The notes under the pieces: generated by a model | Seen by the model: only the letters and a program-made list of their open reading frames with translations | Database searches by the model: none | Told to the model about the DNA's origin: nothing | Shown here: in pieces, positions 49,408 to 54,264 of the stretch | How the letters are laid out: every line of letters starts with the position of its first letter | Position numbering within the stretch: position 1 is the first letter of the stretch | DNA from: Mesorhizobium terrae | GTDB lineage: Bacteria > Pseudomonadota > Alphaproteobacteria > Rhizobiales > Rhizobiaceae | NCBI RefSeq assembly: GCF_008727715.1 | Contig: NZ_CP044218.1 | Coordinates: 3,613,501 to 3,677,500 of the forward strand | Length of the DNA: 64,000 nucleotides | Direction of reading: 5' to 3' | Made by a program: the position numbers and the translations under genes

Positions 49408-50742
49408 TCAGACGCCGCGACCATTGTCGGCGACGGTGGCCGCCTTGCCGCGCGAACTGCCGCCCACTACCACCAGCCGCTTGATCTTGCCCTGCTTGAA
49501 GGCGGCGAGGAAGCGCTTGTAGTCCTTGAAGGCAACGCAGCCATGCGACTGCGCGCGGCCGCCGCGCAGCAGATAGGAATGCGCGAGCAGGCCGGTGCGG
49601 CCATGCTTGGTCTTGCCGTCGGTGGGGGTGAGGCGGATCGCCTCGACGCCGTGGAACAAGGATTCCCGCATCGACAGATTGTAGGTGTCGGGCGGCGTCG
49701 GGCCGCGCATCTTCTGGTTCACGTAGCGGACATTGTCGGCCATTTCGCCAATGCCGGAATGCGCCTCCAGCCTGGAGCCATCGGGCATGGTGACGGTGGC
49801 GGAGGCGATGTCGTAGACGGCGGTACCGTTGCCGGCACGGGCGCTGGAGCCGGGCGAAGAGAACAGGTTGCGGAACGCTTGGCCAAGACCGCCGCTTTCC
49901 GCCGGATTGTCCGGTCGCGCATAGGCGAGCACCGGCTGCGACGGTTGGGTGATGCGCTTCGGCTTCGGGGCCGGTGGGGTCACGGGCTGAGGTGTCGCCT
50001 CGGCACGGCGCGGCTTTTCTTCCGCCTTCGGGCGCTCTTCGGCGCGAGGGCGATAGACCGGCAGCGGTCCGCTGTCCGGCACGGCGGCGAAAGCGGGCGC
50101 GTCGGTCTGGCCGGGATCGGCCAGCGCGATCTCCTGATCACCACTGTCGTCCTGCTGGTCGGGCAGCACCAGGCTCGCCACCAGAACATCGCGCACGGCG
50201 GCGTCGGGCGTCGGCGATGGCTCGGCGAAACCGAGCTCGACATTGGACGGGCCAGAGAGCGCGAGCGCAACGCGCGCGGCGCGTTCCGGCTCGGCGAGCT
50301 GCGGGCCGAAACGATCGGCGTCGGGCGTTGCGGAAATCGATGCGGTTGCGGCGAAGCGTTCACCGAGCGGGGCGTTCGCCACCAAAGCGGCAGCGGCTGC
50401 CGTCTTGGCCTTTTCCGCCATCGCCAGCTTCTCTGCCTCGGCCTGCCGTCGGAATTTCGCCCATTCGCGCGCGACAAGCGCTTGTTTGAGCTTGGACGCC
50501 GCTTCGCCACCGCGCGGATCGACCATGGCGGTGCTGGCACGCACGGGCATGAAATGCGCATTGGCGCGGATCGAAGTGGCGGCCGAATAGGCGCCCGCGA
50601 CGGTTGCCAGCGACCATAGCGCAAGGGCAACACCCGCGCCGGGGATGGCCACCCAGGCGACTAATTTGCCCGAGCGGGCGAGGATTTTTTTCAGACCGTT
50701 TGCGGAACCGCCGCCCCGGACTACTTCACGCGCGAACGCCAT
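49408..50742 (-). CDS. Membrane-anchored DUF2778 (Tlde1-like) YkuD-fold enzyme
   Basis: A 444-residue protein with one membrane helix (about residues 28-52), a long Ala/Pro-rich periplasmic linker (about 60-300) and a C-terminal DUF2778 domain (about 310-432). The catalytic motif is H-S-Y-L-L followed by S-H-G-C-V-A-F, with the cysteine near residue 401, as in L,D-transpeptidases. Salmonella Tlde1 of this family is a type VI effector acting on peptidoglycan; this anchored form with no effector genes around is more likely a wall-remodelling enzyme. The start at 50742 is chosen; the frame is open to 50913. Confidence 0.75.
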   Translation of the reverse strand: MAFAREVVRGGGSANGLKKILARSGKLVAWVAIPGAGVALALWSLATVAGAYSAATSIRANAHFMPVRASTAMVDPRGGEAASKLKQALVAREWAKFRRQAEAEKLAMAEKAKTAAAAALVANAPLGERFAATASISATPDADRFGPQLAEPERAARVALALSGPSNVELGFAEPSPTPDAAVRDVLVASLVLPDQQDDSGDQEIALADPGQTDAPAFAAVPDSGPLPVYRPRAEERPKAEEKPRRAEATPQPVTPPAPKPKRITQPSQPVLAYARPDNPAESGGLGQAFRNLFSSPGSSARAGNGTAVYDIASATVTMPDGSRLEAHSGIGEMADNVRYVNQKMRGPTPPDTYNLSMRESLFHGVEAIRLTPTDGKTKHGRTGLLAHSYLLRGGRAQSHGCVAFKDYKRFLAAFKQGKIKRLVVVGGSSRGKAATVADNGRGV

Positions 50743-51231
50743 GCCAACCGAACTTCTTTCAATCGGCGCTACACGTGGAAACCGCGCTACCCATTCGCCC
50801 GCCGGGAGGCCGGCGAAGCGGCGCGTTCCATTGCCGATCGTCTCAAAGGATGGACAAAGATGGTTAACCAATCCCTGTGATGCCCCTCTTTGGATTGGAG
50901 CCCGCCGCGACAAACCCTCCTAAAAAGGCAAGAAAGCGGCAAAAACGCCACATGGCAAGGATTTTTGTCCGATTCACCCAAAGAAAATGACGTTAGGGAA
51001 GGGCGTGGAAGCGGCCCGCGCAGGAGATGAAAAGCCAAGTGCATGGCGTTTCAAGCTTCGAATGCGGCGCGTTTCCGGGAGGCCGGGCGCAGACATCACC
51101 GACCCTCGGCGATGGCTTGGATCGTCGAGGCTTGGCGAAGTTCACCAAGCCTCTTCAGGCGCTTGCGGCAAGCGCTTCTGTCTGTTTGAGCTTGTTGGCC
51201 GGGTTAAAAATTGAACGCGTTCGGCGGTTTC
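50743..51231. other. Gene-free stretch between uvrD and the DUF2778 gene
   Basis: 489 bp, both flanking genes on the minus strand. It contains the promoter side of the DUF2778 gene, a GGTTAACC word near 50869 and two strong adjacent hairpins at 51127-51177, likely the uvrD transcript end. Short open frames here are unsupported. Confidence 0.5.
51127..51177 (-). terminator. Two adjacent hairpins downstream of uvrD
   Basis: Hairpin 1: perfect 9-bp arms 51127-51135 and 51145-51153. Hairpin 2: 7-bp perfect core 51159-51165 and 51169-51175, extendable by two pairs. On the minus strand they come 55-105 bp after the uvrD stop, without a long T-run, so they may end or protect the transcript. Confidence 0.45.
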
Positions 51232-53997
51232 TCACACCGCCGTCACGAACCCGTCCAGCACCTTCTTCTGGCCGGCGCGGTCGAAATCGATGGTCAGCTT
51301 GTTGCCGTCGATCGCGGAAATATTGCCGTTGCCGAACTTCTGGTGGAAGACGCGGTCGCCGACCTTGAAGGCCGATGGCTGGTCGGCGACGGACTTCGCC
51401 ACCAATTCACCCTCGATGGTGCGGCCCTTCACCGAAGTGCGGCCGGCGCCGTAGCCGGAATCGACCTCGCCATAGCCGATGCGCTCGACCTGGTGGCCGC
51501 TGCGCGTGCCCCAATTGCGGCTGGTCGCCTCGGTGCGGTTTTGTTGCGCGCGTGCCCAACCGGGCGTGGCATAGCTGTTGGAGAAGGCGCCGCCCTGGCC
51601 CCTTTCTTGTCCGGCTGCGCCGCCTTTCTGGTCGCCACGGCCGGCAAAACCGCCGGACGGCGAGCCGAGGCTGTCGAAGCGCGAGGCGCCGTAAGGGTTC
51701 TGGCGTCCGGCTGAAAAACCGCCGCGCCCGGAAGCGAAGGCACCGCCGCCATAAGGATTGCCGTAGCCGCCATAGTTCGAGCCACCGCCCTCCTGCACCT
51801 CGACATGGGCTTCCGGCAATTCGTCGAGGAAGCGCGACGGGATGGTCGATTGCCACAGCCCGTGAATGCGGCGGTTGGAGACGAACCACAGATGCAGGTT
51901 CTTCTTGGCGCGGGTGAGGCCGACATAGGCCAGCCGCCGTTCCTCTTCCAGGCCCGAGCGGCCGCCTTCGTCCAGCGCGCGCTGGTGGGGAAACAGGCCT
52001 TCCTCCCAGCCGGGCAGGAACACGGTCTCGAACTCCAGCCCCTTGGCCGAATGCAGGGTCATGATCGAGACGGCGTCGAGACCCTCATTCTGCTCGGCGT
52101 CCATCACCAGCGCGACATGTTCGAGGAAGGCGCGCAGCGATTCATACTCCTCCATGGAGCGGATCAGCTCCTTGAGGTTTTCGAGACGACCCGGCGCGTC
52201 GGCCGAACGGTCGTTCTTCCACATGTCGGTGTAGCCGCTCTCCTCGAGAATTGTCTCGGCGAGTTCGGTGTGCGGCGTGGTGTCGAGCAGGCTTTGCCAA
52301 CGGGCGAAGTTGGCGGCGACCTCGCGCAAGGCGGCGCGCGGCTTCGGCTTCAGTTCGTCGCTTTCGGCGAGCTTGCCGGCGGCCTCCAGCATCGGAACGC
52401 GCAGCGCGCGCGCCGTGTCGTGGATCTGGCGGATGGTGGCGTCGCCGAGGCCGCGCTTCGGCACGTTGACGATGCGCTCGAAGGCAAGGTCGTCGGCGCC
52501 CTGGGCGACGACGCGGAAGAAGGCCATGGCGTCGCGGATTTCCTGGCGCTCGTAGAAGCGCGGGCCGCCGATGACACGGTAGTTGAGGCCGATCTCGATG
52601 AAGCGATCCTCGAAGGAGCGCATCTGGAAGGAGGCGCGCACCAGGATGGCCATGTCGTTCAGCTTGTGGCGGTCTCGCTGATAGGCCTCGATGGTCTCGC
52701 CGACGGCGCGTGCTTCTTCGTCGGAATCCCAGGCGGCGTGCACATTGACCTTGGGGTCTTCCGGGTCGGGCCGGTCGGTGAACAGCGTCTTGCCGAGGCG
52801 GCCTTCATTGTGGGCGATGAGATGGGCGGCGGCACCCAGGATATGGGCGGTGGAGCGGTAGTTGCGCTCCAGGCGGATGACGGTGGCACCCGGAAAATCC
52901 TTCTCGAAGCGCAGGATGTTGTCCACCTCGGCGCCGCGCCAGCCATAGATCGACTGGTCGTCGTCGCCGACGCAGCAGATGTTGACGAGGTTTCTTTCCC
53001 TCTCCCCGTTCACGGGGAGAGGGTGGTCCGCAGGACCGGGTGAGGGGCGGGAGCTCGCCTCGGAGACGTTTGCGCCGCCCCTCATCTGCCTGCCGGCATC
53101 TTCTCCCCGTGAACGGGGAGAAGAGGGCTGTTTCGGTCGCTGCGCGAGCAGCCTGAGCCACATGTACTGAGCGGTGTTGGTGTCCTGGTATTCGTCGACG
53201 AGGATGTATTTGAACTTGCGGTGGTACTCGGCCAGCACGTCGTGATGCTGGCGGAAGATGCGGATCGGGTGCAGCAACAGGTCGCCGAAGTCGCAGGCGT
53301 TCAGCGTGGTCAGCCGGTCCTGATAGGCACGGTAGAGCTCGCGGCCACGGCCATTGGCAAAGGCGCGCGCATCGCCTTCCGGAATCTCGTCGGGGCCGAG
53401 ACCCTTGTTCTTCCAGCCGTCGATCATCTGCGCGAAGGTGCGCGGCGCCCAGCGCTTGTCGTCCAGCCCCTCGGCCTGGATCAGCTGCTTGATCAGACGG
53501 ATGACGTCGTCGGTGTCGAGGATGGTGAAGTCCGAGCGCAGGCCGGCAAGTTCGGCATGGCGGCGGAGCAGCTTGACGCCGATGGAGTGGAAGGTGCCCA
53601 GCCACGGCATGCCCTCGACCGCCTCGCCGACGAGGATGCCGACGCGCTGCTTCATCTCGCGCGCGGCCTTGTTGGTGAAGGTGACGGCTAGGATCTGCGA
53701 AGGGAAGGCGAGGCCCTGGCTGAGGATATGGGCGATGCGGGTGGTGAGCACGCGTGTCTTGCCGGTGCCGGCGCCGGCCAGCACCAGCACGGGACCTTCG
53801 GTGGTTTCCACCGCCTGGCGCTGCTCGGGGTTCAGCCCCTTCAGATAGTCGGGCGGGTTGTTGTGGCCCTGGCGGGCGGCCATGGCGCGGGCGGCGATGC
53901 CGGAGGGGCCTGACTGTGGTGCGGGTGCACGCGCGCTGTCGAAACGCGGAGCATCGTCCTCGTCGAAGAAGGGCATGTCGTGGGGGTCGCCGGCCAT
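51232..53997 (-). CDS. uvrD: UvrD/PcrA superfamily 1 helicase with in-frame palindromic insertion
   Basis: A 921-residue 3'-5' DNA helicase for excision and mismatch repair. Walker A (G-A-G-T-G-K-T) near residue 77, V-D-E-Y-Q-D-T-N near 272, G-D-D-D-Q-S-I-Y-G-W-R-G near 341 and later R-L-A-Y-V-G-L-T-R-A are classical motifs. Residues about 292-334, between motifs II and III, are encoded by a 126-bp palindromic repeat and absent from typical UvrD. A Gly/Tyr/Asn-rich linker (about 725-825) precedes a PcrA-type C-terminal domain. ATG 53997 follows CGGAGG by 5 bp. Confidence 0.93.
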   Translation of the reverse strand: MAGDPHDMPFFDEDDAPRFDSARAPAPQSGPSGIAARAMAARQGHNNPPDYLKGLNPEQRQAVETTEGPVLVLAGAGTGKTRVLTTRIAHILSQGLAFPSQILAVTFTNKAAREMKQRVGILVGEAVEGMPWLGTFHSIGVKLLRRHAELAGLRSDFTILDTDDVIRLIKQLIQAEGLDDKRWAPRTFAQMIDGWKNKGLGPDEIPEGDARAFANGRGRELYRAYQDRLTTLNACDFGDLLLHPIRIFRQHHDVLAEYHRKFKYILVDEYQDTNTAQYMWLRLLAQRPKQPSSPRSRGEDAGRQMRGGANVSEASSRPSPGPADHPLPVNGERERNLVNICCVGDDDQSIYGWRGAEVDNILRFEKDFPGATVIRLERNYRSTAHILGAAAHLIAHNEGRLGKTLFTDRPDPEDPKVNVHAAWDSDEEARAVGETIEAYQRDRHKLNDMAILVRASFQMRSFEDRFIEIGLNYRVIGGPRFYERQEIRDAMAFFRVVAQGADDLAFERIVNVPKRGLGDATIRQIHDTARALRVPMLEAAGKLAESDELKPKPRAALREVAANFARWQSLLDTTPHTELAETILEESGYTDMWKNDRSADAPGRLENLKELIRSMEEYESLRAFLEHVALVMDAEQNEGLDAVSIMTLHSAKGLEFETVFLPGWEEGLFPHQRALDEGGRSGLEEERRLAYVGLTRAKKNLHLWFVSNRRIHGLWQSTIPSRFLDELPEAHVEVQEGGGSNYGGYGNPYGGGAFASGRGGFSAGRQNPYGASRFDSLGSPSGGFAGRGDQKGGAAGQERGQGGAFSNSYATPGWARAQQNRTEATSRNWGTRSGHQVERIGYGEVDSGYGAGRTSVKGRTIEGELVAKSVADQPSAFKVGDRVFHQKFGNGNISAIDGNKLTIDFDRAGQKKVLDGFVTAV
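52998..53123. repeat. 126-bp palindromic repeat inside uvrD coding sequence
   Basis: Two strong dyads bound it: 12-bp arms around TC at 52998-53023 and 11-bp arms around GA at 53100-53123, both built on CTCCCCGT/ACGGGGAG. Inside, TGAGGGGCGG (53041-53050) pairs with CCGCCCCTCA (53075-53084), and GGTCC/GGACC forms a small hairpin near 53025. This is the layout of rhizobial intergenic palindromic elements. Its length is 42 codons exactly, keeping the frame. Confidence 0.8.
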
Positions 53998-54264
53998 TTC
54001 GCCTCCGAATGTAGTGATTCGGGCGAGAAAGGCCAGCAATGTTCACACACTGTTCCCTAATTTGGCGGGTTTGCGGGCCATTGACGCCACCAGCAGGATG
54101 CGGCTAGCGTCGATTACGGCTCGACGCAGCCGGCAGTCCGCGCCCCGAAATGGGTATGGCGAATGCGTCGCGACACTTCAGTCTGGTCCTTGTCCCTTGG
54201 GGCGAAGGCGCCGGCAATGCGGACCCCGGTGAAGCCTGAGCGCCCTGACGAGAAGGATCGCATT

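Follow-up and report, generated by a model that had tools for sequence, protein, structure and literature searches.

A palindromic repeat in frame within uvrD of Mesorhizobium terrae, and a UvrD loop that is a hotspot for repeat insertion in Rhizobiales

Palindromic repeats that add segments to proteins are known mainly from Rickettsia and Wolbachia, which have small intracellular genomes. The Rickettsia palindromic elements (RPE) were reportedly described by Ogata et al. in 2000 and 2002. The Rhizobium-specific intergenic mosaic elements (RIME, Osteras 1995) are said to be intergenic, about 100 bp long and bounded by large palindromes. Two articles place RPE in frame within genes (PMC2229807, PMC10969869). 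Di Nocera et al. 2013 report intragenic repetitive extragenic palindromes (REPs) of the GTAG/CGTC kind, many of them in DNA-repair genes; the genes for DNA polymerase I and UvrD/Rep helicase are among those named (PMC3733652). Other REPs are intergenic and adjoin the 3' ends of convergent genes (PMC3733652). According to the same paper, the REPs in recB of two Xanthomonas lie at about the same site, and those in other genes of the repair category at different sites (PMC3733652). Here, we analyzed a window of 64,000 nucleotides from Mesorhizobium terrae (contig NZ_CP044218.1 of assembly GCF_008727715.1, positions 3,613,501 to 3,677,500; unless a locus is named, coordinates below are those of the window), in which a palindromic element, type E, lies in frame within the helicase gene uvrD. 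The loop that it occupies, between helicase motifs II and III, is an insertion hotspot in Rhizobiales, where different lineages carry unrelated repeat families. We consider it probable that a dispersed palindromic repeat was captured in this tolerant loop and that species then exchanged loop alleles in short tracts.

A palindromic element in the reading frame of uvrD

The uvrD/pcrA-type helicase gene of the window lies on the minus strand at 51232..54000 in the list of open reading frames (ORFs), with an approximate 5' end and an open frame running on to 54039. Its best NCBIfam match is TIGR01073 (pcrA) with 768 bits, under the equivalog cut-off of 911, and PcrA/UvrD relatives of known structure align with it. 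Element E, on the same strand at 52998..53124, is read in frame within KQPSSPRSRGEDAGRQMRGGANVSEASSRPSPGPADHPLPVNGERERNL, and the uvrD frame crosses it without a stop. The original prediction had proposed a palindromic repeat of 126 bp at 52998..53123: the palindrome in uvrD is there, but it has 127 bp and ends at 53124. The two strong bounding dyads were recovered as described, each with arms of 12 nt that are 100% complementary, one at 52998..53023 (arms 52998-53009/53012-53023; CCCTCTCCCCGT-tc-ACGGGGAGAGGG) and the other at 53099..53124 (arms 53099-53110/53113-53124; TCTTCTCCCCGT-ga-ACGGGGAGAAGA). Terminal inverted arms of 25 nt and 92% complementarity (53001-53025 / 53097-53121, spanning 53001..53121) close one long hairpin, and an internal dyad is found at 53041..53084 (53041-53050 / 53075-53084). 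The element starts with CCCTCTCCCC and finishes with GGGGAGAAGA. With its size and its terminal inverted repeats it resembles RPE-like palindromes of about 100-150 bp, and such repeats are also a mark of miniature inverted-repeat transposable elements. Folded as RNA, the coding strand gives a single closed hairpin of -87.8 kcal/mol, versus a mean of -54.35 kcal/mol (sd 4.15) for 200 shuffles, none of which reached the native energy (z -8.06). The sole Rfam matches, the microRNA models MIR1437 and MIR1858, scored around 35 bits against gathering thresholds of 168 and 137 and were set aside as hairpin noise.

As foreseen, the insertion lies between motif II (DEYQDTN) and motif III (GDDDQS), which by alignment corresponds to PcrA residues 242|243. 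The upstream flank, comprising motif II and the next helix (53125..53196, minus strand, DEYQDTNTAQYMWLRLLAQRPKQP), and the downstream flank with motif III (52951..52986, minus strand, VNICCVGDDDQS) were aligned among the alleles of the genus. The spacer between the two motifs has 82 residues in the window UvrD versus 38 in four empty alleles of the genus and 33 in 26 of 27 readable loci of the class. The surplus in the loop is 44-49 residues, more than the approximately 42 first proposed, and the frame is kept, as had been claimed. In a modest AlphaFold2 model built from 34 sequences (mean pLDDT 66.3, pTM 0.43), residues 280-323 have a pLDDT under 50 and no secondary structure; a helix (263-273) precedes them, and the motif III strand (328-332) follows. 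So modeled, the inserted residues would be a disordered stretch between helix and strand, in keeping with the expected loop just before DDDQS. Further UvrD-like helicase matches occur on the smaller contig of the same genome (G000:C1:42626-44389, 50455-51756 and 127396-128676).

A loop that holds different repeat families in Rhizobiales

Among the best 80 of 588 uvrD loci from contigs of Rhizobiales genomes, 79 were readable (the search pattern missed L106). Their spacers between motifs II and III range from 33 to 117 residues and are visibly unlike in sequence; in 33 of the 79 proteins, the loop has at least 12 residues more than the 33-residue reference. Other extra stretches of at least 12 residues were found in the C-terminal linker only, and none elsewhere in the helicase core. 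For the class, we sampled one genome per family, found a match in 114 of 115 genomes and fetched the best 30 loci, of which 27 were readable. The spacer has exactly 33 residues in 26 of them and 38 in the remaining one, which belongs to the same order; in 67 additional class-wide alignments, typed by hand from a table, the net gain is at most 25 residues. Hence, beyond these lineages, the sampled families have a short loop of near-fixed length. With the four empty alleles of the genus, these class-wide spacers give orthologues from which the insert is absent, as in RPE-like systems. Absence of the residues from distant UvrD was a test attached to the original prediction, and they are indeed absent there; inside the genus, an insert at this place is the rule, albeit of families other than E. 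Six inserts of other genera (one each of Tianweitania and Ensifer, two each of Rhodopseudomonas and Bradyrhizobium) all match further places in their own genomes, and the insert of locus L084 has at least one other such place among the matches listed.

Element E is itself a dispersed repeat. A search of its own genome (6.02 Mb) with the element and short flanks yielded 37 rows of matches, which were condensed manually into 23 places. Their gene context was taken from ORFs called by codon usage, with the window as training sequence. Eighteen places are intergenic, one overlaps the edge of an ORF (L003) and four are wholly intragenic and in frame, in uvrD, cobN (P0001), the N-terminal region of ftsY (P0002) and polA (L351). 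CobN and FtsY exceed their NCBIfam cut-offs, and polA was named from its own sequence and genus-wide matches, not by family search. These four in-frame copies in unrelated conserved genes support the proposal that Rhizobiales have protein-coding palindromic elements comparable to RPE. Convergent ORFs flank at least 8 of the 18 intergenic copies, and in several cases a stop codon is no more than 10 bp away; by the ORF table, the copies at L352 (1436-1488), L353 (1515-1561) and L354 (1464-1550) are between genes. An open frame is easily had, because in 19 E copies a mean of 2.4 of the 6 frames contain no stop. The element also matches 179 records of rhizobial plasmids (90 of Rhizobium and 64 of Sinorhizobium), and among the 30 rows listed, all but one fall where the gene table, itself incomplete, annotates no gene. 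Places resembling E on Sinorhizobium meliloti plasmids reach 72-73% identity when the entire element is matched, or 86% when half of it is. Recurrence elsewhere in the genome had been set beforehand as a test of the repeat, and the own-genome places together with the plasmid records bear it out.

Within Mesorhizobium, uvrD was matched in 146 of 146 genomes. We fetched 130 loci, leaving out 16, and 128 of these had a readable spacer of at most 200 residues. The other two are L230 (genome G047), in which the frame is broken within a C-type insert, and L238 (G003), with an open spacer of 222 residues that contains a proline run. An insert is present in 124 of the 128 readable alleles and four are empty. 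By DNA similarity, the inserts are of types A1 (33 alleles), A2 (30), B (25), C (21), D (6) and F+A1 (4), with one allele each of G, A2+A1, G+A2, D+A1 and E, the last being that of the window genome and of no other among the 128. The families are partly related, with stretches shared between E and G, between A1 and A2, and between the stems of B, C and D. Composites make up at least 7 of the 128 alleles, with L226 and L232 labelled A1 despite F-like residues ahead of A. When six inserts (E, A1, B, C, D and G) were used as queries, all except A1 had other places in their own genome; the dispersed matches of B are mostly half-length, and two of the three places listed for D in genome G025 fall in ftsY. 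A nested in-frame segment, RDAEGAQKR, occurs inside the A1 inserts of L172, L189, L202, L207, L227 and L237.

Other genes of the genus carry inserts too. Matched in 41 of 41 genomes, cobN has two insertion sites with different repeat families (L241-L270), just ahead of VPILFYRS and of FPFRAATFG. One loop (26 of 30 loci read) has 27-30 residues in its empty state, and E, B-like or C/D-like inserts lengthen it to as many as 105; a second site (12 of 30 read) has B-like inserts of up to 89 residues. The N-terminal region of ftsY holds two D repeats in G025 (L340, which NCBIfam confirms as ftsY) and a single one in G114 (L348, assigned by place), and L345 (G017), L347 (G075) and L343 (G124) resemble ftsY with D repeats; the D-type repeats of ftsY form a branch separate from the D inserts of uvrD. 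Two C repeats flank a conserved middle segment of the pyruvate dehydrogenase (PDH) E2 gene (dihydrolipoamide acetyltransferase) in L332 (G114), L333 (G124) and L331 (G017), the pieces of L331 and L333 being partial and their family matches under the cut-off. In G017, the frame shifts between the two D copies of ftsY (L345) and is broken in the E2 gene (L331), and both breaks may be assembly errors. An E/G-kind repeat lies in frame in polA of the window genome (L351 1452-1573, C2:2562551-2562672); of the 10 polA loci out of 30 that were readable by pattern, the other nine are without it.

Kinship, linkage and origin of the uvrD inserts

The inserts of families B, C and D are mostly closest to one another rather than to dispersed copies. 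For all 21 C inserts, all 6 D inserts and 17 of the 19 B inserts in uvrD, the closest sequence is an insert in another uvrD allele (44 of 46 together; six of the 25 B inserts were too short and were excluded). The D tree splits uvrD from dispersed copies in 80% of bootstrap trees, and the C tree does so save for one long-branched row. Alleles of one family also have junction residues in common. The D inserts diverge by 0.045 and their flanks by 0.100. At third codon positions, the difference is 0.084 in D, 0.116 in C, 0.172 in A2, 0.193 in B and 0.263 in A1, versus 0.250 in the upstream flank. Hence, D and C at least spread after the host genes had diverged. Every DNA gap within A2 (3 gaps), B (32) and C (40) has a length divisible by three, and D has no gaps. 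First and second codon positions vary 1.4-2.8 times as much as the upstream flank in A2, B and C, at least 3 times in A1, and less than it in D. These patterns suggest that the reading frame is guarded and that most of the residues are only loosely constrained, which may be because the loop is tolerant.

Insert families are weakly linked to the uvrD sequence around them. For 115 alleles, the agreement of family with the nearest neighbor by flank (150 bp on both sides) is 0.50 versus 0.34 by chance (kappa 0.24), and the two sides taken singly give kappas of 0.14 and 0.12. In a control, 20 overlapping windows of 90 bp in the same gene, with classes of like chance agreement, gave kappas of 0.37-0.83 (mean 0.63). 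The agreement with the flank shows no rise near the insert: the first 30 bp upstream differ by 0.125 between alleles of the same family and by 0.143 between families, and downstream both values are 0.088. On a flank tree of 137 rows, nine of them outgroup, the family label changes 68 times, against a mean of 86.4 after shuffling, and none of 200 shuffles gave so low a count, which indicates some clustering of families. Among 30 mutual nearest pairs by flank, 16 are unlike in the make-up of their inserts and 13 have no family in common; in the 16 pairs with at most 5% divergence, 7 have none. For example, G103 and G114 have A1 and C inserts, although their flanks diverge by just 2.5% and are free of mismatches up to 64 bp upstream and 33 bp downstream of the insert. 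Such discordance is unlikely to stem from differential loss in descendants of a composite ancestor: composites make up at least 7 of the 128 alleles, yet the recent ancestors of the discordant pairs would have to be composite.

We propose that repeats plentiful between genes are occasionally captured in a surface turn of UvrD, between motifs II and III, that tolerates them. Variants in which the insert keeps the frame would survive, and the insert-bearing protein is probably made, with the 44-49 extra residues translated as a disordered loop; this loop would have little effect on activity, and the helicase would keep working. Families C and D, and largely B, may each have been captured once or a few times in the genus, and their loop alleles would then move from one species to another as incoming uvrD DNA recombines homologously in short tracts centred on the insert. 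Hairpins are subject to SbcCD-type cleavage, and the short tracts could come from such breakage, which perhaps begins the exchange, or from the high identity of the sequence coding for motifs II and III. We tentatively entertain a bolder version, in which the loop is a modular cassette with a trans-species polymorphism, and old repeat-derived alleles are reshuffled in tracts barely longer than the insert, driven by palindrome-provoked gene conversion or by selection for variety. If so, dispersed selfish repeats would have turned into an interchangeable component of a central repair enzyme and, it may be, of CobN, FtsY and PDH E2 as well.

Several results weigh against capture followed by short-tract exchange. 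The dispersed copies in the kinship test were few (12 for C, 12 for D and 3 for B, picked from the top matches in nine genomes), and the B tree shows no split, with two dispersed copies among the uvrD inserts. Type A, alone in 63 of the 128 alleles, has 0-2 other partial matches per genome, too few to support it as a dispersed repeat; this commonest family may be an old or degenerate repeat, or no repeat. Type F has no other matches in its own genomes. The third positions of A1 are as divergent as the flank (0.263 versus 0.250), and of its gaps, in an ambiguous alignment, 48 of 137 are multiples of three. We also compared insert and flank in ungapped same-family pairs, dropping those with more than 20% flank mismatch (pairs kept: A1 240 of 325, A2 352 of 406, B 216 of 300, C 172 of 210, D 10 of 15). 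The insert is closer than the flank in 18 of 240 A1, 56 of 352 A2, 22 of 216 B, 63 of 172 C and 10 of 10 D pairs. In most pairs of A1, A2, B and C it is thus less alike than the flank, as expected for loosely constrained sequence, and a recent spread is clear only for D and partly for C. G103 and G114 are 96.6-98.7% identical around uvrD versus 92% in cobN and 93-94% in ftsY, so the exchange may also have involved longer stretches around uvrD, and old recombination within the flanks may explain some of the lost linkage. Filled and empty uvrD alleles compared by eye showed no target-site duplication, and their junctions vary. Finally, the evidence on kinship covers B, C and D, and the entry of E itself stands outside it.

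In a rather unlikely alternative, mobile repeats were inserted and deleted independently in each species in one tolerant loop, with selection of in-frame events. Different genera do have different families at the site, the window genome has E when its four closest relatives have A1, composites (D+A1, F+A1, G+A2) exist, and uvrD and dispersed copies are not separated in the B tree. However, repeated insertion fits poorly with uvrD copies that lie nearest each other in C, D and most of B, relative to the dispersed copies sampled, and with the common junction residues of same-family alleles. We prefer capture followed by exchange.

Diversifying selection, with a loop recognised by a phage, plasmid or partner protein and old alleles kept circulating across species, seems improbable to us. 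It would explain why several families persist and why empty alleles are rare (just 4 of 128), and it agrees with families that are near-random on the flank tree, given the 68 changes. Yet no partner is known, the residues are of low complexity and disordered in the modest model, constraint on the first two codon positions is loose in A1, A2, B and C, and a cause specific to UvrD leaves the inserts of cobN, ftsY, polA and PDH E2 unexplained. We think still less of the idea of a role at the nucleic-acid level, in which a hairpin in the mRNA or a cruciform in the DNA would tune uvrD transcription or translation and the amino acids would be incidental. The very stable fold argues for such a role, as do the intergenic copies between convergent ORFs and near stops, which are reminiscent of terminators or 3' stabilisers; but the families interchange, four alleles are empty, and in the five families measured variation is greatest at the third codon position, if only slightly so in C. 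As for an artefact of assembly or gene calling, or a pseudogene, the broken frame inside the insert of L230 is its one point of support, and its probability is close to nil: 128 of 130 loci of the genus read through the site in one frame, many of them in single-contig genomes, and L238 is open too.

Comparison with known systems

With these inserts, coding repeats are found in large genomes of soil bacteria and in core genes, with more than 100 comparable alleles of a single loop. Whether such inserts reflect drift or function becomes directly testable through natural loop swaps, and the uvrD alleles could be read as an archive, laid down in nature, of the recombination tracts that surround a palindrome. 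Intragenic repeats as a kind, UvrD/Rep helicase included, were already known. In the full-text literature searched, which did not extend to subscription papers or to supplements such as the REP gene list of PMC3733652, we found neither in-frame repeats in rhizobia nor a reused UvrD loop or interspecies swapping of inserts; what appears new is the reuse of one loop by many families across Rhizobiales and their likely reshuffling.

Element E resembles RIME in being rhizobial, of similar size and bounded by palindromes. Like the GTAG/CGTC REPs, it occurs within repair genes and near the 3' ends of convergent genes (PMC3733652). It differs from them in having neither a GTAG nor a CGTC tag at the stem end, and in that one UvrD site is reused by many families and genera, with inserts that are probably reshuffled (PMC3733652). 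By reading, the inserts of L080, L090 and L098 do fit the CGTC REPs as described there, with CGTC, a stem and a CCA tail (PMC3733652). The closest likeness is to RPE: about 100-150 bp, a hairpin with terminal inverted repeats, dispersal, and in-frame copies in unrelated conserved genes. The likeness proposed is a functional one. Unlike the RPE of Rickettsia, element E belongs to another order with large genomes and is mostly intergenic (18 of 23 places), and a single UvrD loop is reused by several families, the alleles of which were probably reshuffled among species.

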